Program-made: the position numbers and the translations under genes | DNA from: Thiohalophilus sp. | GTDB lineage: Bacteria; Pseudomonadota; Gammaproteobacteria; UBA6429; Thiohalophilaceae | Direction: 5' to 3' | DNA: 64,000 bases | NCBI RefSeq assembly: GCF_034522235.1 | Contig: NZ_JAXHLN010000003.1 | Location: 2,170,001-2,234,000 of the forward strand | Notes under the pieces: model-generated | The model's input: the letters and a program-made list of their open reading frames with translations, nothing else | Database searches by the model: none | What the model was told of the DNA's origin: nothing | Shown: positions 3,441-57,678 of the stretch, in pieces | How positions within the stretch are numbered: the stretch's first letter is position 1 | Layout of the letters: each line of letters begins with the position of its first letter

Positions 3441-3588
3441 CACCGCAGAGACGCAGAGAACGCGGAGAAAGAAATAATTTTGAATTTTAAATGTTGAATT
3501 GTGAATGGAACCCGGCTCTAAAATTCAACATTCAACATTCAACATTCAACATTGTATCTTTGCGCCCTCTGCGCCTCTGCGGTAAAAA
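3441..3588. repeat. Composite intergenic hairpin repeat (classes A+B)
   Basis: The spacer between queA and tgt is a nested inverted repeat. The outer arms (about 3441-3468 and 3559-3588) are built on CGCAGAG and CTCTGCG units. The inner arms (about 3475-3507 and 3520-3553) are AT-rich, built on TTGAATT/TTGAATG and ATTCAAC, the latter as four tandem heptamers. The right arm ends 4 bp from the queA stop codon. The same architecture recurs at 9688 and 53571, and its parts recur at many other spacers in this window. Confidence 0.9.
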
Positions 3589-4811: not shown

Positions 4812-4975
4812 CAGGGACGAGTGACGAGGGCCGAGGGACGAGGAAAAGCCCCCTACCCTGATTTCTTCCTTAATTTTCCGTCAATATAGAATCGCGTAAC
4901 CCGGCTGCAACGGCGCAGAGTCCGGAATTACGTAACCGCCTTTCCTCGTCCCTCGTAACTCGTCCCTCGGCCCTG
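4812..4975. repeat. Intergenic hairpin repeat (class C, GACGAGG units)
   Basis: Inverted arms at about 4812-4843 (GGGACGAG, GACGAGGG, CCGAGGGACGAGG) and 4944-4975 (CCTCGTCCCTCG, AACTCGTCCCTCGG) surround about 100 bp of non-repeated sequence. The locus lies between tRNA-Leu and the 3' end of pgi; the right arm ends 7 bp from the pgi stop. Nearly the same right-arm sequence recurs at 17309-17348, and a fuller copy is at 31175-31341. Confidence 0.85.
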
Positions 4976-6842: not shown

Positions 6843-9677
6843 ATGGCGGCAGAAAAAAAATCCTCGCAAGACGGGTCCCGTCAAACCGGCAGTCGGCCTG
6901 TGCACGACAAACCGTTGCGTTCCCGGGTCAAACTGTTCGGCAACATCCTTGGCGAGATCCTGCGGGAGCACGCCGGGGAGCAGGTGTTCAACGCCGTGGA
7001 GACCTTGCGCAAGGGCCATATCAGCCTGCGCAATACGGACAATCCGCACAAGCGCCACAAGCTGGCCGAGTATACCGCCACACTCGATGCCGAAACCCTC
7101 GTGCATGTGGTGCGCGCCTTCGCCATCTATTTCAGTCTGGTCAATATCGCCGAAGAGTCCTTCCAGCATCGCATGCGCCGTCGTGACGCCGCTAAAACCG
7201 GCCCTACCTGGAAAGGATCCTACCACGCCATATTAAAAGAGCTGGAAGGCGACGGCATCGAACCGGCGCAGATCCAGACCCTGCTGGATCGGCTGGCCTA
7301 CATTCCCGTCTTCACCGCTCATCCGACCGAGGCGAAACGCCGCACCATCCTTGAGGCCCTGCGGCGCATCTTCGTGATCAGCGAAGAGCTGGACATCCCC
7401 GGCCTGACGCTTAATCAGCGTGAGGAAATCCAGGAAAAACTGCGCCGCCATATCCGGATCCTGTACAAAACCAACGAGGTCCGGGTGGACAAACCGCAAG
7501 TGCTGGACGAGGTCAAAAACGGGCTCTATTACTTCAAGGAATCGCTGTTCGACGCGGTGCCGGACACCTACCGCAATCTGGAAAAATCCCTTAACCACAT
7601 CTACGGCCGTGACCATGGGGTGAGCGTACCAAGTTTCATTCGCTTCGGCTCCTGGATCGGCGGCGACCGCGACGGTAATCCGTTCGTCAAACCGCAAACC
7701 ACCGTCAAGGCCGTCAACATGATGGCTCACGCCGCCGTGGAGGAATACGCCGAGCGCGTCCGCCGCCTGAGCCGGACCCTGACCCACTCTTCCCAGCTGT
7801 GTGAACCCAACGCGGCCTTTAACGACAGCCTGCAAGCGGATGAACAGCGCTATCCGCACATCTTTGCCGACCATCCTCACCGTTTTAAACAGGAACCCTA
7901 TCGGCGCAAGCTGTTCCTCATGCACAAGCGACTGCAGGCGACCCTGGACAAGCTGCAGTCACGCATCGCCGATGCCGAGTATGTCGGACTGGGTTGCGGT
8001 TATATCAACGAACATGAGCTGCTCAAGGATCTCTATCTGATCCGCGATTCGCTCATCAGTCACGGCGACAAGGTCATCGCCGACGGTGAATTGCAGAACC
8101 TGACCCGGCTGGTGGAAACCTTCGGGTTCTATCTGGCCCATCTGGATATTCGCCAGGAATCGACCATCCACACCGAAACGGTCAGCGAAATCATTCACCA
8201 GATCGACGGCAGCGACTATAGCGCACTGGATGAAGATGGCCGGCTGCACAAACTGGCCGAACTGATTCGCCAGTCGCCCGCGGAGATCGACACCGAAAAA
8301 CTGAGCGAGATGAGTCGGGAGACCTTCGAGGTGTTCCAGGTCATGACCCGTCTACGCGAAGAAGTCAGCCCGCACACCTTCGGCAGTTACGTTATCTCCA
8401 TGACCCATCAGGCCAGCCATGTGCTGGAAGTGATGTTCCTCGGCTGGCTGGCCGGACTGGCCGGCTACCGTGACGGCAAGCCGTTCTGCCATATTCATAT
8501 TTCGCCGCTGTTCGAGACGGTCAACGATCTGGCACATATCGAACCGGTGATGAACAAACTGCTGGATATCCCGACCTATACCGAACTGCTCAATGCCGCG
8601 GACAACACCCAGGAAGTGATGCTGGGTTATTCCGACTCTTGCAAGGACGGCGGCATTCTCGCCTCCACCTGGAATCTGTATCAGGCCCAGCAGCAGATCA
8701 CCGCCCTGACCCAGCAACGCGGGATCCGCTTGCGCCTGTTCCACGGTCGCGGCGGCACCATGGGCCGCGGCGGCGGTCCGACCCATGATTCGATCCTGTC
8801 GCAACCGACCGGCACCGTGCACGGCGAGATCAAGTTCACCGAACAGGGTGAAGTGCTCTCCTATAAATACAGCAACCAGGAGACCGCCGTTTACGAGCTG
8901 ACCATGGGCATTACCGGACTGCTCAAGGCCAGCCGCAACCTGATCGAACCACCGCCGCCGGATAATCCGGAATACCTGGATATCATGGCGCAACTGGCCA
9001 AAACCGGTGAACAACATTATCGCGAACTGACCGACAACACGCCCGGCTTTCTGGATTACTTCTACGAGGCCACCCCGGTGTCGGAAATCGGCCTGCTCAA
9101 CATCGGCTCGCGTCCCTCGCACCGCAAGAAAACCGATCGCTCCAAGGAGTCAGTGCGCGCCATCGCCTGGGTCTTCGGCTGGGCCCAGTCGCGCCATACG
9201 ATCCCCGCGTGGTACGGCATCGGCATGGCACTGGAAAAATGGGTCGGTCGCAGTCCGGAAAAACTGCAAAAGCTGCAGGAGATGTACCATCAATGGCCCT
9301 TCTTCCGCGCCCTGCTGAGCAATACCCAGATGTCGCTGTTCAAGGCCGACATGCACATCGCCCGCGACTACGCCGATCTGTGCAAGGACCCGAAAACCGC
9401 GGACACCATCTACAAGATGATCAACGCCGAGTACAACCGCACCCGCCTGCGCGTACTCGAGGCCGCCCGGCTGCAGGAGTTGATGGCCGAAACCCCCAAC
9501 CTCGCCCTCTCCCTCACCCGACGCAATCCCTATCTGGATCCCCTCAACCAGATCCAGCGCATCCTCATCGAACGCTTCCGCGACGAGTCGTGCAGCGAGG
9601 AAGAACGCAACCACTGGCTCAATCCGCTGTTGCGCAGCATCAACGCTATCGCCGCGGGAATGCGCAACACTGGTTAA
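6843..9677 (+). CDS. ppc: Phosphoenolpyruvate carboxylase
   Basis: Ppc carboxylates PEP with bicarbonate to oxaloacetate, refilling the TCA cycle; in an autotroph it supplies C4 precursors. The open frame starts at 6690, but the ATG at 6843 (MAAEKKSSQ) is chosen because upstream residues are not family-like and cover the promoter region; the ribosome site is weak. The product is 944 residues. Catalytic sequences are VFTAHPTEAKRRT, GSWIGGDRDGNPFV, FHGRGGTMGRGGGPTHDS, and the C-terminal GMRNTG. Full length and intact. The exact start is less certain than the identity. Confidence 0.96.
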   Translation: MAAEKKSSQDGSRQTGSRPVHDKPLRSRVKLFGNILGEILREHAGEQVFNAVETLRKGHISLRNTDNPHKRHKLAEYTATLDAETLVHVVRAFAIYFSLVNIAEESFQHRMRRRDAAKTGPTWKGSYHAILKELEGDGIEPAQIQTLLDRLAYIPVFTAHPTEAKRRTILEALRRIFVISEELDIPGLTLNQREEIQEKLRRHIRILYKTNEVRVDKPQVLDEVKNGLYYFKESLFDAVPDTYRNLEKSLNHIYGRDHGVSVPSFIRFGSWIGGDRDGNPFVKPQTTVKAVNMMAHAAVEEYAERVRRLSRTLTHSSQLCEPNAAFNDSLQADEQRYPHIFADHPHRFKQEPYRRKLFLMHKRLQATLDKLQSRIADAEYVGLGCGYINEHELLKDLYLIRDSLISHGDKVIADGELQNLTRLVETFGFYLAHLDIRQESTIHTETVSEIIHQIDGSDYSALDEDGRLHKLAELIRQSPAEIDTEKLSEMSRETFEVFQVMTRLREEVSPHTFGSYVISMTHQASHVLEVMFLGWLAGLAGYRDGKPFCHIHISPLFETVNDLAHIEPVMNKLLDIPTYTELLNAADNTQEVMLGYSDSCKDGGILASTWNLYQAQQQITALTQQRGIRLRLFHGRGGTMGRGGGPTHDSILSQPTGTVHGEIKFTEQGEVLSYKYSNQETAVYELTMGITGLLKASRNLIEPPPPDNPEYLDIMAQLAKTGEQHYRELTDNTPGFLDYFYEATPVSEIGLLNIGSRPSHRKKTDRSKESVRAIAWVFGWAQSRHTIPAWYGIGMALEKWVGRSPEKLQKLQEMYHQWPFFRALLSNTQMSLFKADMHIARDYADLCKDPKTADTIYKMINAEYNRTRLRVLEAARLQELMAETPNLALSLTRRNPYLDPLNQIQRILIERFRDESCSEEERNHWLNPLLRSINAIAAGMRNTG

Positions 9678-9687
9678 TAAAAGATCT

Positions 9688-9831
9688 TCACCGCAGAGGC
9701 GCGGAGAAAAAATAATTTTGAATTTTAAATGTTGAATTGTGAATGGAAATCGTTCCTGAAATTCAAAATCTAGAATTCAACATTCAAAATTATATTTTCA
9801 CACACTCTGCGCCTTTGCGCCTCTGCGTTAC
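9688..9831. repeat. Composite intergenic hairpin repeat (classes A+B)
   Basis: It begins 10 bp after the ppc stop codon. Outer arms (9688-9707, CCGCAGAGGCGCGGAGA; and 9803-9831, CTCTGCGCC/CTCTGCG units) enclose inner AT-rich arms (9713-9746 TTGAATT units; 9759-9794 ATTCAA units). The left half is close to identical to the left half of the copy at 3441-3588, including the stretch AATGTTGAATTGTGAATGG, showing recent common origin. Confidence 0.9.
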
Positions 9832-9841
9832 AGAGCTTTTT

Positions 9842-9874
9842 AAAAATAGAAAAGGGCCGGTAAACCGGCCCTTT
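9842..9874 (-). terminator. Rho-independent terminator after the DsrE-like gene
   Basis: On the minus strand AGGGCCGG-TTTA-CCGGCCCT is followed by TTTTCTATTTTTA. It lies 30 bp after the stop of the periplasmic DsrE-like gene at 9904. Confidence 0.85.
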
Positions 9875-9903
9875 GTGCAGTCGAGCTTGTCCGTAAAACA
9901 CGG

Positions 9904-10353
9904 TTACGGACGAATGTAGGTGTAACCCTGTTCCTGCAGCTCGGTGATCCGGGCAACGCCGCCGGGAACCACTTCAACACCTTCGGCCAGGGCCGGCTTT
10001 TTACCTTTTTTGCTCTCGATCTTGGCCATGGTATTGGCGCAGGCATTGAAGTTGATATTCTGCATGGCCATGCTCTCAACGCGCGAGGCATTTGCACCGT
10101 TTTTGGTAAGCAGGCTCAGTCCCGGCCCATAGGCAACAATCTGCACGTCAACATTATCCATGCCGTACGCTTTTTGCAGGTTTGCAGCATTATTCAGGGC
10201 AATCTTCTGGGTGCGGGCATCATCCGTACTGACCTGGATAATCACCTTGTGATCCGGATCCATCGGCCCCGCCAGGGCAGTCTGCCCCAGAAAGACAGTA
10301 GCAAGTACAACCGAAACCAGTCCGCCTTTTACAAAATTCGTTACCGTATGCAT
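9904..10353 (-). CDS. Periplasmic DsrE/DsrF-like protein
   Basis: The 149-residue product has an N-terminal signal peptide (basic residues, then GGLVSVVLATVFLGQTALA; cleavage after ALA) followed by a DsrE-fold domain: HKVIIQVSTDDARTQKIALNN, VQIVAYGPGLSLLTKNG, and a conserved Cys in FNACANTM. Exported DsrE-like proteins are common in sulfur oxidisers, but the substrate and partner are unknown. Start choice: two in-frame ATGs occur; the second (10351-10353) has AAGGAG 7 bases upstream, while the first is too close to it. It is a single-gene unit with its own terminator, converging on ppc. Confidence 0.8.
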   Translation of the reverse strand: MHTVTNFVKGGLVSVVLATVFLGQTALAGPMDPDHKVIIQVSTDDARTQKIALNNAANLQKAYGMDNVDVQIVAYGPGLSLLTKNGANASRVESMAMQNINFNACANTMAKIESKKGKKPALAEGVEVVPGGVARITELQEQGYTYIRP

Positions 10354-10771: not shown

Positions 10772-10882
10772 CAATTTTCAATGTTGAGTTTTGAGTGACG
10801 GTATTCACTAACCAATTCAAAATTCATCATTCAGAATTCAAAATTACTTTACGTCCTCCGCGCCTTTGCGTCCTCTGCGTTA
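10772..10882. repeat. Intergenic hairpin repeat (class B arms plus one class A arm)
   Basis: AT-rich arms at about 10772-10799 (AATTTTCAATGTTGAGTTTTG) and 10813-10846 (AATTCAAAATTC, ATTCAGAATTCAAAATT) form a hairpin. A class A right arm follows (10851-10882, CCTCCGCGCC, GCGTCCTCTGCG) but the matching left CGCAGAG arm is missing. It sits 63 bp downstream of the panD stop. Confidence 0.8.
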
Positions 10883-17234: not shown

Positions 17235-17300
17235 TCACCACCAAGACACAAAGACACCAAGCAAAAAATTAATCTTCGTGTCTTGGCGTCTTGGTGGTGA
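17235..17300. repeat. Intergenic hairpin repeat (class E, AAGACAC units)
   Basis: Inverted arms TCACCACCAAGACACAAAGA... (17235-17261) and ...TCTTGGCGTCTTGGTGGTGA (17274-17300) are separated by about 12 bp. A very similar hairpin overlaps the ribD stop at 29463-29537, and a decayed one follows soxA at 42490. Confidence 0.88.
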
Positions 17301-17308
17301 GTGCTTTT

Positions 17309-17348
17309 CCTCGTCCCTCGTAACTCGTCCCTCGGCCCTCGGCCCTGT
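17309..17348. repeat. Right half of a class C repeat
   Basis: CCTCGTCCCTCGTAACTCG and CTCGGCCCTCGGCCCTGTT match the right arm at 4944-4975 almost exactly with one extra 7-bp unit (CTCGGCC). No left arm is present here. It ends 3 bp before the stop codon of the Fe-S protein gene, and is fused directly to the class E hairpin. Confidence 0.82.
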
Positions 17349-23845: not shown

Positions 23846-23867
23846 GCCTCGCCACGCGAGGCAATGC

Positions 23868-23941
23868 TGAATTTTGAATGATGAATTTTAAATTACGACA
23901 AAGACTGCAATTCAGAATTTAAAATTCAACATTCAAAATTA
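23868..23941. repeat. Intergenic hairpin repeat (class B only)
   Basis: Between convergent folE2 and the retropepsin-like gene, arms TGAATTTTGAATGATGAATT (from 23868) and AATTTAAAATTCAACATTC (to 23941) form an AT-rich hairpin with no flanking class A arms. A separate small GC hairpin GCCTCG-ccac-GCGAGGC (23846-23862) directly follows the folE2 stop and lacks a T-run. Confidence 0.82.
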
Positions 23942-26488: not shown

Positions 26489-26691
26489 ACCGCAGAGGCG
26501 CAAAGAACGCGGAGAAAAATACTTTATAACAGTAACATTGATTGTCGTTCCTGAGATTAATCAGGCTGTTCACTTATATCCTAATCCAGTAAATACAGTG
26601 CACCTTTATAAGGTATGATATTTCATTGCTAACACAAAAATCGGAAAAAATTATTATAATTATTCTCTGCGCCCTCCGCGTCTCTGCGGTG
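26489..26691. repeat. Intergenic hairpin repeat (class A arms, unrelated centre)
   Basis: Arms ACCGCAGAGGCGCAAAGAAC... (26489-26515) and CTCTGCGCCCTCCGCGTCT... (26664-26691) flank about 150 bp of AT-rich sequence without TTGAATT units. The right arm ends 8 bp from the nusB stop. The centre has AACATTGATTG and a TATAAGGTATGATA stretch but no gene. Confidence 0.85.
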
Positions 26692-29462: not shown

Positions 29463-29537
29463 CTCACCACCAAGACGCGAAGACACGAAGGAAGAAATTA
29501 AATCAATAAACTTTGTGTCTTGGCGTCTTGGTGGTTA
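29463..29537. repeat. Intergenic hairpin repeat (class E) overlapping the ribD stop
   Basis: Arms CTCACCACCAAGACGCGAAG... (29463-29491) and ...GTGTCTTGGCGTCTTGGTGG (ending 29537) pair over about 27 bp with a roughly 20 bp AT-rich centre. The last bases of the right arm are the ribD stop codon itself. The copy at 17235-17300 is very similar. Confidence 0.88.
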
Positions 29538-30635
29538 GTTTTTTCTCACTTCCGCCGTGATTCGCCAGTCTTCTCCAATGGCACGAATATCCTTTATCTG
29601 CAACTGCAACTGATCGGCCATGTTCTCCAACCCCGGCAGGTGAAACAGGCCGCGGGCAGCGTCACCGAGCAGGGTCGGGGCCATGTAGATGATTAACTCA
29701 TCGACCAGGCCTGCTTGCATCAGTGCGCCGGCCAGGGTGGCGCCGGTTTCCACGTGCAGTTCGTTGATTTCCATCTCGCCGAGTTGATCCAGTACCGCCC
29801 CCAGATCGACGTTGTTATGTGCGTCCTCGGGAACCGTGATGACCTCGGCACCCGCGTTGCGAAGGGCGTCGCGGACGGATTCCTCCTCACTGCAGGTCAT
29901 GATCACCGTTTTACCCGGCTGCTGCAAAATCGTCGCATTGGCCGGCGTGCTCAGGTGGGTGTCTACGATAACCCGCAAGGGCTGGCGTTCGGCCTGTTCA
30001 AGGCGCACGGTCATGGACGGATCATCGGCCAGCACGGTGCCCACCCCGGTGAGGATCGCCGAACTGCGCGCCCGCCAGTGTTGCACATCCTGCCGCGCGG
30101 CCGCGCCGGTGATCCACTGGCTCTCGCCCGAGGCCATGGCCGTGCGGCCGTCCAGGCTCATGGCCAGTTTCAACCGCACATAGGGGCGACCGCGCTGCAT
30201 GCGCCGGATAAAACCGGGATTGAGTTGCCGGGCCTGCGCTTCCATCAGACCACTGTCCACGGCAATACCGGCGGCCTGCAACTGGCTAATTCCGCCGCCA
30301 TCGACCTGCGAATGGGGATCGCGCATCGCCACCACCACGCGGCTGACACCGGCCTGGATCAGGGCCTCACTGCAAGGAGGTGTCCGCCCGTGATGACAGC
30401 AGGGCTCCAGGGTGACATAGGCCGTGCTGCCGTTGGCCTGCTCGCCGGCCGCCTGCAGGGCATGCACTTCGGCATGGGCTTCGCCGGCCCGTTCATGCCA
30501 GCCTTCGCCGATGATGGCGTTAGCCCGCACCAGCACGCAACCGACGCGGGGATTGGGATCGGTGGTATACAGACCCCGTTCGGCCAGTTGCAGGGCGCGG
30601 GCCATGTAACGGTGATCATCGGCGCTGAAGCTCAT
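29535..30635 (-). CDS. ribD: Bifunctional pyrimidine deaminase/reductase RibD
   Basis: RibD deaminates and then reduces the pyrimidine intermediate of riboflavin synthesis. The 366-residue protein has the N-terminal zinc deaminase domain (HAEVHALQAAG, TLEPCCHHGRTPPCSEALI) and the C-terminal NADPH reductase domain (RPYVRLKLAMSLDGRTAMASGESQWITG, ILTGVGTVLADDPSMTVR, GATLAGALMQAGLVDEL). It lies 14 bp after nrdR, the common arrangement. Confidence 0.96.
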   Translation of the reverse strand: MSFSADDHRYMARALQLAERGLYTTDPNPRVGCVLVRANAIIGEGWHERAGEAHAEVHALQAAGEQANGSTAYVTLEPCCHHGRTPPCSEALIQAGVSRVVVAMRDPHSQVDGGGISQLQAAGIAVDSGLMEAQARQLNPGFIRRMQRGRPYVRLKLAMSLDGRTAMASGESQWITGAAARQDVQHWRARSSAILTGVGTVLADDPSMTVRLEQAERQPLRVIVDTHLSTPANATILQQPGKTVIMTCSEEESVRDALRNAGAEVITVPEDAHNNVDLGAVLDQLGEMEINELHVETGATLAGALMQAGLVDELIIYMAPTLLGDAARGLFHLPGLENMADQLQLQIKDIRAIGEDWRITAEVRKN

Positions 30636-31165: not shown

Positions 31166-31174
31166 CGCTCAGTG

Positions 31175-31341
31175 CCGAGGGACGAGGGACGAGGGACGAG
31201 GAACAAAATATTTCTGTGTCATATCACTGTTTCCCGGTTCCATGAATCATCAACATCGTCGCAGCAGCCAGAAAAAATGATCAAGTCTGTAAGCACCATT
31301 TTTCCACCTCGTCACTCGTCCCTCGTAACTCGTCCCTGTTA
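31175..31341. repeat. Intergenic hairpin repeat (class C, tandem GACGAGG)
   Basis: The left arm (31175-31202) holds three perfect GACGAGG heptamers and one variant (CCGAGG); the right arm (about 31307-31341) is CCTCGTCACTCGTCCCTCGT plus AACTCGTCCCTGTTA. The right arm ends in the glyA stop codon (31339-31341). The spacer between the arms is not repeated elsewhere in the window. Confidence 0.87.
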
Positions 31342-36971: not shown

Positions 36972-37058
36972 AAAGTTGACAGTCGGCAGATAGCAGTTGG
37001 CAGAAAGTCGGAATCAGCTGTTTTTACTGCCAACTGCCATCTGAAGACTGCCAACTTC
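36972..37058. repeat. Intergenic hairpin repeat (class D, TTGGCAG units)
   Basis: Arms 36972-37009 (AAAGTTGACAGTCGGCAG, TAGCAGTTGGCAGA) and 37025-37058 (CTGCCAACTGCCATCTG, GACTGCCAACTT) begin 3 bp after the stop of the FadL-type gene. Related arms are at 42712, 44840 and 57159. Confidence 0.85.
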
Positions 37059-42449: not shown

Positions 42450-42475
42450 GCCCGGCTCTGCCGGGCTTTTTTTTG
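42450..42475 (+). terminator. Rho-independent terminator after soxA
   Basis: GCCCGGC-TCT-GCCGGGC followed by eight T residues, 30 bp past the soxA stop. Confidence 0.93.
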
Positions 42476-42489
42476 TCTGCTTATAAAAT

Positions 42490-42746
42490 CCTCACCACGA
42501 AGGCTCGAAGACACGAAGGGAAAACGAATACAACCTGTGCCTTCGCGAGATCACCGAATACTGAAGCGACCGCTAGCTTGTGTCTTGTCTGCTGGGGGTA
42601 ACCTGGGAACCACCGAGACACCGAACACACTGAACTCACCGATACCGATATTTCGGTCACCCGTTACCCGACTGTTTTCAATCAGGGAACAACCGAACGA
42701 GCAGGATTTTCTGCTGCCGACTGCCATCTGTCATCTGCCAACTATC
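42490..42746. repeat. Decayed mosaic of hairpin-repeat arms (classes E and D)
   Basis: The 42421-42878 spacer holds a partial class E element (CTCACCACGAAGGCTCGAAG... with GTGCCTTCGCG), a related stretch (CACCGAGACACCGAACAC, then CGATATTTCGGTCAC), and a class D right arm (42712-42746, CTGCCGACTGCCATCTG, CATCTGCCAACTATC) without its left arm. Nothing else is recognised here apart from a likely ribosome site before 42879. Confidence 0.65.
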
Positions 42747-44839: not shown

Positions 44840-45035
44840 AGTAGGCAGTTTGCAGTTGGCAGATAGCCGACTGTTCGAATGTCCTCGTTATGCCGGTAGA
44901 CGTCTGGACCAACGCTAAACCGCAAACAATAAAACCAACGGGGCTGGTTTTCTCTACCTCGTAGCGACTCTGCGAGAGGTAGCTGGCTGCCAACTGCCTA
45001 CTCGTCTCAGCACTCAGCACTCAGCACTCAGCACT
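44840..45035. repeat. Hairpin repeat (class D) plus tandem CTCAGCA heptamers (class F)
   Basis: Arms 44840-44867 (AGTAGGCAGTTTGCAGTTGG...) and 44983-45002 (CTGGCTGCCAACTGCCTACT) pair. Four perfect CTCAGCA heptamers follow at 45006-45033 and then CTAG-rich sequence. An inner inverted repeat (CTACCTC...GAGGTAG, 44953-44983) lies between the D arms. It begins 15 bp after the permease stop. Confidence 0.8.
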
Positions 45036-45102
45036 AGCCTAGTACCTAGAAACTAGCCCCTGTAAATAAATAACGGGAAATTGAGCACTTCGCGAAGACA
45101 AG

Positions 45103-47487: not shown

Positions 47488-47674
47488 CAACGCAGAGGCG
47501 CGGAGGCATTCAGAAAATTTTGAATTTTGAATGTTGAATGTTGAATTTTCAATTCACATATGTCGGACTCGGAAACGCAAACATATTAAACCGCTTCCAG
47601 AAGCATGTCCTGCTATCTGATACTTTATAATTTATTGCCAATTCAACATTCAACATTCAAAATTCAAAATTTTC
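47488..47674. repeat. Intergenic hairpin repeat (class B arms with one class A arm)
   Basis: A class A left arm (47488-47506, AACGCAGAGGCGCGGAGG) precedes class B arms at 47514-47556 (TTTTGAATTTTGAATGTTG, repeating) and 47640-47674 (ATTCAACATTCAACATTCAA...). The class A right arm is missing. The right B arm ends 2-3 bp from the queE stop. Confidence 0.85.
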
Positions 47675-53570: not shown

Positions 53571-53710
53571 TCACCGCAGAGAAAGAAATAATTTTGAATT
53601 CTAAATGTTGAATTTTGAATTAAATCTGACTCTGCAATTCAAAATTTAAAATTTAAAATTTAAAATTCAACATTCAACATTCAACATTATATTCTGCCGT
53701 CTCTGCGGTA
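53571..53710. repeat. Composite intergenic hairpin repeat (classes A+B)
   Basis: Short outer arms (TCACCGCAGAGAAAG at 53571 and CCGTCTCTGCGGTAAAA to 53710) enclose inner AT-rich arms: left TTTTGAATTCTAAATGTTG..., right four AAAATTT-type heptamers followed by three ATTCAAC heptamers. The outer arms are reduced to about one CGCAGAG unit. It ends about 15 bp from the ruvB stop. Confidence 0.9.
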
Positions 53711-55478: not shown

Positions 55479-55632
55479 TTAACGCAGAGTTCGCGGAGGC
55501 GCAGAGACGCGGAGGAAAAGAATATCTGAATCTGGCACACGGTGAACCGCCTCACAGGCATATTTATCGGGTCAAAACCTGAAACAGGTTCATGTTCCTC
55601 TGCGGCTCCGCGCCTCTGCGTCCTCCGCGTTA
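55479..55632. repeat. Intergenic hairpin repeat (class A only)
   Basis: Arms 55479-55515 (TTAACGCAGAGTTCGCGGAG..., GCGCAGAGACGCGGAGG) and 55596-55632 (TCCTCTGCGGCTCCGCGCC..., TCCTCCGCGTTAA) pair well; the centre is unrelated but holds its own small inverted repeat (AACCTGAAACAGGTT). It lies between ruvA and the ruvC 3' end. Confidence 0.9.
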
Positions 55633-56259: not shown

Positions 56260-56352
56260 TTAACGCAGAGATATTCGGGCAATTTTGAATTTTTAATGTT
56301 GAATTTTGAATGGAATCTGGGTTTGCAATTTAAAATTCAACATTCAAAATTA
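56260..56352. repeat. Intergenic hairpin repeat (class B with a class A stub)
   Basis: TTTAACGCAGAGA (from about 56260) is a stub of a class A left arm. Class B arms follow: 56281-56313 (AATTTTGAATTTTTAATG...) and 56327-56352 (CAATTTAAAATTCAACATTC...). It ends 5 bp from the yebC stop. Confidence 0.84.
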
Positions 56353-57158: not shown

Positions 57159-57320
57159 AAGTTGGCAGTTGGCAGTTGGCAGTTGGCAGTTGGCAGTTGG
57201 CAGTTGGCAGTTGGCAGTTGGCAGTTGGCAGTTGGCAGTTGGCAGTTGGCAGTTGGCAGTTGGTAGAATTCTAATTCAGTTTTTTGCTGTCAACTGCCAT
57301 CTGATGACTGCAAACTGACG
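57159..57320. repeat. Class D repeat with 14 tandem GTTGGCA heptamers
   Basis: From 57161 to 57258 there are 14 perfect copies of GTTGGCA, then one variant (GTTGGTA). A right arm (about 57288-57320, GTCAACTGCCATCTGATG, CTGCAAACTGACGACTAA) is partly complementary, as in the class D hairpins at 36972 and 44840. The expanded left arm points to replication slippage. It lies between the first FHA gene's stop and the yebC start. Confidence 0.95.
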
Positions 57321-57321
57321 A

Positions 57322-57678
57322 CTAACTATCGGGAAGATAGATCGCGGTCTGTTCGTAATGCTCGTCGGCGCCGCTGTCGAAGGTGAACTCGTGACCGCCG
57401 ATGCGAATAACATCGCCGTGCTTGAGTAGCTGGCGGATGATTTTGCTGTCGTTGACAATGGTGCCGTTGGTACTGCCCAGGTCTTCCAGATACACGTCGT
57501 AATAATTTTCCAGATAGTCATTGGGCTTCAGAACCAGACGCGCATGACGTCCACTGACCGCCGGATCATCGAGTTGAATCTCGTTATCCCCCTGGCGACC
57601 GATATTCAGCACCTTCTTATCAAACTCATAACTGCTGAGGGTCAGTCCCTCGTGCTTGAGTAACAATTTTGCCGGCAT
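57322..57678 (-). CDS. Single FHA-domain protein
   Basis: FHA domains bind phosphothreonine. The 118-residue product is essentially one FHA domain with all key residues: LNIGRQGDNEIQLDD, AVSGRHARLVL and EDLGSTNGTIVNDSKI, and a short C-terminal extension (EQTAIYLPDS). It is the last gene of a four-gene cassette with a kinase and PP2C phosphatase, so it probably reads or tunes their phosphorylation state. Confidence 0.9.
   Translation of the reverse strand: MPAKLLLKHEGLTLSSYEFDKKVLNIGRQGDNEIQLDDPAVSGRHARLVLKPNDYLENYYDVYLEDLGSTNGTIVNDSKIIRQLLKHGDVIRIGGHEFTFDSGADEHYEQTAIYLPDS

Follow-up and report, generated by a model that had tools for sequence, protein, structure and literature searches.

The genome of a Thiohalophilus species carries many intergenic inverted arrays made of degenerate 7-8-mers, which are probably miniature, non-autonomous foldback elements that resemble REPs, lie at the 3' ends of genes, nest in one another and exchange parts with one another. 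The window, that is, the whole stretch of DNA analysed here, comprises 64,000 nt (G000:C3:2170001-2234000, genus Thiohalophilus), and its QueA shares 91% identity with that of Thiohalophilus thiocyanatoxydans DSM 16326. Based on the window, on longer stretches of the same genome (G000) and of a congener (G001, the sister species) and on genomes of other genera, we describe the anatomy of these arrays, their location, and the replacement of their occupants at addresses that persist between species.

Array classes and detection

The class names used here (A-G and I) were coined in the present analysis. The unit of class A is the 8-mer NCGCRGAG (9 bp at some joints) and that of class B is the 7-mer NTTGAAT, and the further units are GGGACGA (C), AGTTGGC (D), ACACGAAG (E), AACTCAG (F) and GGGGCTA (G), together with the I-like unit ACCGAAC. 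The arms were located by a cyclic-unit scorer with a cut-off score of 22, the coordinates were also checked by eye, and the genes were called by a simple codon-score script. In the window, 42 arms score at least 22, while four dinucleotide shuffles yield 1, 1, 1 and 0. Positions beyond the window are given as W coordinates (G000:C3 minus 2,100,000), and the window coordinate is the W coordinate minus 70,000.

When folded as RNA, the full composites described below form long hairpins. Five elements gave z of -5.3 to -10.4 versus shuffles: -6.9 to -9.3 for three A-B composites, -5.3 for B alone and -10.4 for E. At the gathering score, the sole Rfam match in the window is a tRNA, and no array matches any RNA family.

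Arrays in the window

The sequence-only reading of the window had placed A arms around B arms, in the same order and orientation, at 3441, 9688 and 53571, and both inspection and scoring agree, with weak A arms at the third site. The composite at 3441-3588 (A+ 3443-3468, B+ 3476-3507, B- 3520-3553, A- 3557-3582; scorer and eye) lies between queA and tgt, 10 bp away from the stop codon of queA as called by codon score, and the one at 9688-9830 (A+ 9691-9707, B+ 9714-9745, B- 9759-9800, A- 9804-9828) lies in a convergent gene gap. At 53571-53710 (B+ 53590-53621, B- 53636-53688; scorer and eye) the A arms are eroded, with one unit on the left and about 1.5 units on the right, the latter scoring 14.3 and thus below the cut-off of 22.

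A single outer arm had been reported at 10772, 47488 and 56260, and was found at each. The A arm is on the right side only at 10773-10880 (B+ 10773-10794, B- 10814-10845, A- 10855-10880) and on the left side only at 47490-47671 (A+ 47490-47507, B+ 47516-47554, B- 47640-47671), and 56264-56352 has a single, weak left A unit followed by B+ 56281-56312 and a weaker right B arm identified by eye. Likewise, the outer arms with unrelated centres noted at 26489 and 55479 are A+ A- pairs whose centres are not B-like (26490-26689, with A+ 26490-26515 and A- 26664-26689; 55482-55630, with A+ 55482-55515 and A- 55597-55630), and the inner part noted at 23868 is a 78-bp B element alone (B+ B-, 23863-23940). 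B alone, A alone, B with one A arm and the full A-B composite all occur; consequently, A and B are separate modules, and this part of the earlier interpretation stands.

Arrays of the other classes are also present. The class C inverted arrays (GGGACGA) at 4813-4974 and 31171-31337, the class E hairpin at 29468-29545 and the class D inverted array (AGTTGGC) at 36974-37056 all keep their positions in the sister species. Another class E hairpin (ACACGAAG) is followed by a right C arm only (17239-17346), and closely spaced D+ D- F+ G- arrays occupy 44840-45061. One-armed E, I-like (ACCGAAC) and D arrays lie behind an intrinsic terminator at 42496-42743, where the occupants differ in the sister. 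At 57160-57323, a class D array, which is a near-perfect AGTTGGC tandem, is accompanied by a right arm, and the sister has G/F arrays and REP-like palindromes there. The near-perfect tandem itself (57160-57266) has about 15 units, and its copy number could vary.

One-way nesting and element B

Successive arms of the same class are ordered + then - in 109 of 118 cases. The nesting runs one way: B lies inside A 36 times (many of these loci having been fetched for matching the composite), A inside C 4 times, E inside C 5 times and E inside A once, and the reverse was never seen; a further tally of one A around F is likely a B arm misread as F. The centres of B are mostly about 14 bp long and those of A and C mostly 70-130 bp, so the one-way nesting is partly due to the little room within B centres.

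Element B, about 78 bp long, is discrete and asymmetric, with two different ends, and has spread in both orientations. A single asymmetric consensus, whose loop is partly conserved, fits 28 elements of 72-86 bp, of which 16 point one way and 12 the opposite way. The two arms of B fail to match within copies (p=0.99, n=39) because the ends of B are two different sequences; arm covariation in B was therefore rejected. For the other classes in Thiohalophilus, within-element arm matching gives p=0.006 for E (n=10), p=0.87 for C (n=15) and, for A, p=0.003 under a looser arm definition (n=41) and p=0.15 under another (n=22). Among the A centres, 42 of 210 pairs score as related, and many centres in this set hold the B element. 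By inspection, certain outer ends recur (TTCACCGC or TAACGC), and the unit core CGCRGAG is kept while the linker bases vary, although the arm definitions partly demand the core.

A hairpin insert of 21 bp, GTTTATGCCCGTTGTTTGGGT, interrupts some A units, mostly at GC^GC, and its orientation is fixed (L185-L214, near position 1501; L203 among them is the W138310 site). With no more than two mismatches, 25 copies occur in the window genome and 46 in the congener (controls 0), and all 30 contexts read among these 71 copies, a few of whose loci overlap, follow an A-type unit. A longer insert of about 55 bp, beginning GCGACGTACAGGGAAGTACTAGTG, also breaks A arms near GCGC, as seen by eye at G000:C3:2136113-2136335 (W36113), at L173 and L180, and at the congener ortholog of window 55466.

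Position relative to genes

The arms are almost exclusively intergenic, namely 110 of 113 in 294 kb of the window genome and 100 of 102 in 270 kb of the congener. In the window genome, gaps of at least 120 bp contain arms in 17 of 25 cases where the flanking genes converge, in 29 of 71 where they are co-directional and in 1 of 33 where they diverge (non-divergent versus divergent, Fisher p=6e-7; p=9e-4 in the congener). The median distance from a cluster is 18 bp to the stop codon and 70 bp to the start codon, for 71 clusters of at least two arms in both genomes, single-arm sites being left out. The arrays are thus located at the 3' ends of genes.

Complete intrinsic terminators adjoin at least two arrays (W68923; window 42450-42475). 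The idea that arrays replace terminators was rejected, since a terminator is present in 11 of 48 gaps with arrays and in 15 of 73 without.

A search for Y1_Tnp gave nine RAYT matches in the two genomes. Within the 3.3 kb examined at each, no A or B arm with a score of at least 20 is present; consequently, RAYT as the mover of A and B was rejected (0/9), and no transposase tied to A or B was found when autonomous relatives were searched as Y1_Tnp. Some of the nine loci have C, D, E, F, G or I arms, and at L223 an E+...E- pair encloses the RAYT gene together with its REP array. In the congener, RAYT genes accompanied by GTAG-like REPs are seen at L223 551-2162 and L222 1235-2188, and the L223 array contains ACCCTTCGGGCATAAAC, a shorter look-alike of GTTTATGCCCGTTGTTTGGGT recognized by eye.

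Elsewhere in the window genome, L225 (G000:C3:1572000-1591999) contains a run of toxin-antitoxin modules, for example at 7051-10126. The three pairs examined all consist of an RHH or Phd/YefM antitoxin and a PIN toxin (Pfam; one antitoxin below the curated cut-off). Between the modules lie one-armed heptad arrays of classes D, B and C, which contain higher-order repeats of 49 bp, and throughout the first 15 kb B runs in one direction.

The same addresses in the sister species

The comparison covered approximately 182 kb of chained synteny and 60 non-divergent gaps that reach 100 bp in at least one of the two species. Arms are present in both species in 28 gaps, in the window species only in 3, in the sister only in none, and in neither in 29, the last count depending on the 100-bp cut-off; a recount with slightly different edges gave 27 shared and 4 unshared. 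One site unshared by threshold, W36113, has A remnants below the threshold in the sister.

The addresses persist and the occupants change. Outside the arms, homology coverage is 0.64-0.98 at 8 C/D/E sites, one of which has A inside C, and 0-0.76 (median 0.27) at 18 A/B sites (p=1e-4); the test omits one D-to-G/F site and the 4 sites with an occupant in a single species. For example, a B/B pair in the window species corresponds to an A/A pair, with a different centre, in the sister at window 23841, and B/B corresponds to A/A at W68923. Similarly, A with a right E arm corresponds to A with a right B arm at W140263, and D arrays correspond to G/F arrays at window 57144. The right A arm at window 47474 is missing in the window species and present in the sister, and the single left A unit at window 56248 corresponds to a longer left A arm. 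A-only and B-only states, for which the sequence-only reading had advised a search in relatives, are both present at orthologous sites of the sister, as is A with E. The empty sites with target duplications that it had also suggested looking for were not found in precise form, either at the one-sided sites of the syntenic stretch or at three sites of genus g3 discussed below.

The centre at window 26490-26689 has no similarity to that of the sister, and the centre at 55482-55630 matches that of the sister in inverted orientation (score 62, z 35) but not directly (score 10, z 2), from which it follows that the segment between the A arms was flipped. Outside itself, the composite in the queA-tgt gap of the sister is most similar to window 9691 (90% over 101 bp), and its positional ortholog, window 3443, is not among its best seven matches. 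Within the window species, the composites at window 3443 and 9691 and at W279524 resemble one another at 81-85% over 130-138 bp (85% over 138 bp for 3443 and W279524). These likenesses suggest that composites or their halves move or convert between loci. While the addresses persist, their A/B occupants have often been replaced, relocated or inverted between the arms.

Distribution and arm matching in other genera

All pattern counts refer to exact matches and include the window genome, and some genomes of the family are incomplete. Of the 40 family genomes, 12 have the exact A pattern, as do 19 of 249 genomes sampled across the phylum; the exact B pattern occurs in 2 of the 40, both Thiohalophilus, the exact C pattern in 9 of 40, and the exact E pattern in 3 of 114 genomes sampled from the class. 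Reversed-pattern controls for B gave 4 matches in the window genome (against 96 real ones) and 1 in the congener, and those for A gave 3 in one genome that lacks a real A match, 2 in G006 and single matches elsewhere. The wider occurrence of A than of B fits the addition of B inside A in Thiohalophilus. When 80 named QueA loci were scanned with strict patterns, 3 of those outside this genus had arrays just 3' of queA (an A pair at L071; a single C arm at L011 and at L013). A distant blastn search for plasmid sequences related to an A element and to an E element, with the low-complexity filter on, gave no match.

Two other genera provide A elements that have no B arm between their arms, 16 from G006 and 4 from G025, picked for close pattern matches on both strands. 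In 10 of these 20 elements both arms are identical, compared with 0.63 expected from mismatched pairs, and arm similarity is 0.935 within elements and 0.764 between them (p 5e-5, the floor for 20,000 permutations). Only 1 of 171 pairs of their centres is related. The arms of one element are thus matched, the elements differ and the centres are unrelated, which suggests copying from arm to arm. In Thiohalophilus, within-element matching is weak or lacking, and the equivalent test on 22 A elements is not significant (p=0.15).

Three G006 sites were compared with genomes of the same genus (g3), and no clean empty site or target duplication was seen at them. At C113, G004 has a partial right arm only and G003 and G005 are without the element, G003 differing over a longer stretch as well. 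At C122, G005 has degenerate A arms with another centre, and G003 has a different palindromic repeat. At C181, G005 has a related centre with the right arm at a contig end, and G003 has an interrupted right arm. One draft contig (L314, the end of G003:C438) terminates in TTTAAC, the bases preceding the A arm at the matching G006 site, so arrays may be undercounted in draft genomes.

Possible origins of the arrays

How could such a series of arrays have arisen? Under the reading that we consider probable, miniature foldbacks would have spread, in the manner of REPs, into the 3' ends of genes just behind the stop codons. A, C and E would be arm pairs around a replaceable centre, which may serve as a tolerated landing place, and later arrivals would insert in the centres, with B entering A, A or E entering C and, in a single case, a RAYT/REP cassette entering E. 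Pairing or recombination of arms, within an element and between copies, could then invert centres, move composite halves and delete or trim arms, and the graded series of composites would result from such recombination and arm deletion. Arm-to-arm copying may keep the arms alike in some lineages, and the enzyme would presumably be supplied in trans.

The sequence-only reading had explained the same series by stepwise insertion or arm loss. The graded states do occur at orthologous sites, but the insertion step itself was not seen. In addition, some composites look like ready-made units, and exchange and inversion between arms have shaped the series too; therefore, simple stepwise insertion is not the whole story.

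A more far-reaching proposal is conceivable, although we regard it as somewhat doubtful. It holds that there is a class of elements defined by the arms only, in which a matched pair of 7-8-mer arrays brackets arbitrary DNA, mutual copying keeps the two arms identical, each element has its own arm code, and the 3'-end address persists across species while the repeat family is swapped.

The chief alternative is that selection maintains a foldback of some kind at these gene ends. The arrays could be regulatory or structural sites, bound by an IHF/HU-like or other protein or acting as 3'-end RNA hairpins, at which any class would serve. Such a role, which was proposed for comparable Geobacter sites by Aklujkar et al. 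(2009; PMC2700814, available portion), would accord with the strong hairpins, with the 28 of 31 addresses common to both species despite the change of content, and with the kept unit core, as far as inspection of arms partly defined by that core can tell. However, it is unlikely, considering that at least two arrays adjoin complete terminators and that there is no overall terminator replacement, that 28 of the 40 family genomes (some incomplete) are without an exact A match, and that arms are interrupted by short inserts.

The arrays would be quite improbable as ordinary MITEs, for which one transposase uses the arms as terminal inverted repeats and nesting arises by chance. The fixed arm orientation, the recurrent outer ends, the many copies and the patchy distribution would all be expected of such elements. 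Nevertheless, the A centres in G006 and G025 are unrelated between copies and the two arms of one element vary together there, and no target duplication was seen in the syntenic stretch or at the g3 sites. Finally, a process without transposition, in which arrays grow where they stand through replication slippage and template switching at hairpins already there, could produce 7-8-bp units in variable number, the near-perfect D array at 57160 and the arm matching in G006 and G025, but it is very improbable, since unrelated loci have in common the B consensus, including some loop bases, and composites 81-85% alike, for which copying between loci is needed.

If foldbacks that nest and exchange are indeed the explanation, the arrays would provide a readable series (A, B, A around B, C around A, inverted centres, lost arms) of repeat nesting, exchange and erosion, and would thus make a good natural archive of the build-up and swapping of small bacterial repeats. 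The comparison of orthologous sites would allow the event of a new tenant at the same address to be counted, and arms that match while the centres they enclose are unrelated would mark arm-to-arm copying in bacterial foldbacks directly in the sequence.

Comparison with known systems

Twelve array unit strings gave no relevant match in PMC full text, and in the literature on foldbacks, MITEs and bacterial intergenic repeats there was no clear counterpart among the matches listed. The comparisons below draw on portions of the papers cited.

The nearest printed description found is that of the paired tandem-octamer sites of Geobacter metallireducens (Aklujkar et al., 2009; PMC2700814). In that account, sites of classes 1-3 have 3-5 tandem 7-8-mers each, classes 1 and 2 form opposite-strand pairs at variable distance, insertion sequences are near some of them, and the sites are predicted to be bound by IHF/HU or a global regulator. 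The present arrays are likewise inverted pairs of tandem 7-8-mer arrays at variable distance and in several classes. However, the Geobacter units are different (GTTGCTYN, TCTCCGTS[Y] and MTYCTGA), class 4 there is a pentamer repeat, and nesting, orthologous replacement and arm matching do not appear in the available portion of that paper. If our interpretation is correct, it would offer an alternative reading of the Geobacter sites that were called regulator sites.

REPs are palindromes of 20-40 bp with a GTAG/CGTC tag, which lie between convergent or co-directional genes and are near stop codons or supply them (PMC3733652, in part). Similar to REP/BIME repeats, the present elements are hairpins of multiple families per genome placed downstream of genes in convergent and co-directional gaps, and GTAG-like REPs with RAYT genes are also present in the sister genome. 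In contrast, classes A-E are 7-8-mer arrays with arms mostly of 25-50 bp and lack the tag described there; inspection found no GTAG/CGTC tag at the ends of the A-B copies or of the B consensus.

Other systems are more distant. The TAACTGA repeats of Beggiatoaceae (MacGregor, 2015; PMC4679880, as excerpted) are also intergenic heptamers of patchy distribution in sulfur bacteria, but they form direct arrays, mostly just upstream of start codons, with one indirect repeat reported. The foldback-like Drosophila transposon Galileo has long inverted arms that change in length and, in some subfamilies, tandem repeats, whereas it is eukaryotic, of kilobase size and equipped with a known transposase (PMC3573991, excerpt); no homology is claimed. 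A reported MITE of Porphyromonas gingivalis with a minisatellite is similar in having a tandem repeat inside a miniature inverted-repeat element (PMC4596501), and the triplex repeats of bacteria have other motifs, according to the portion seen of PMC4666352. Compared with these known relatives, the one-way nesting, the changed tenants at kept addresses and the matched arms around unrelated centres are unusual, and these features merit focused study.
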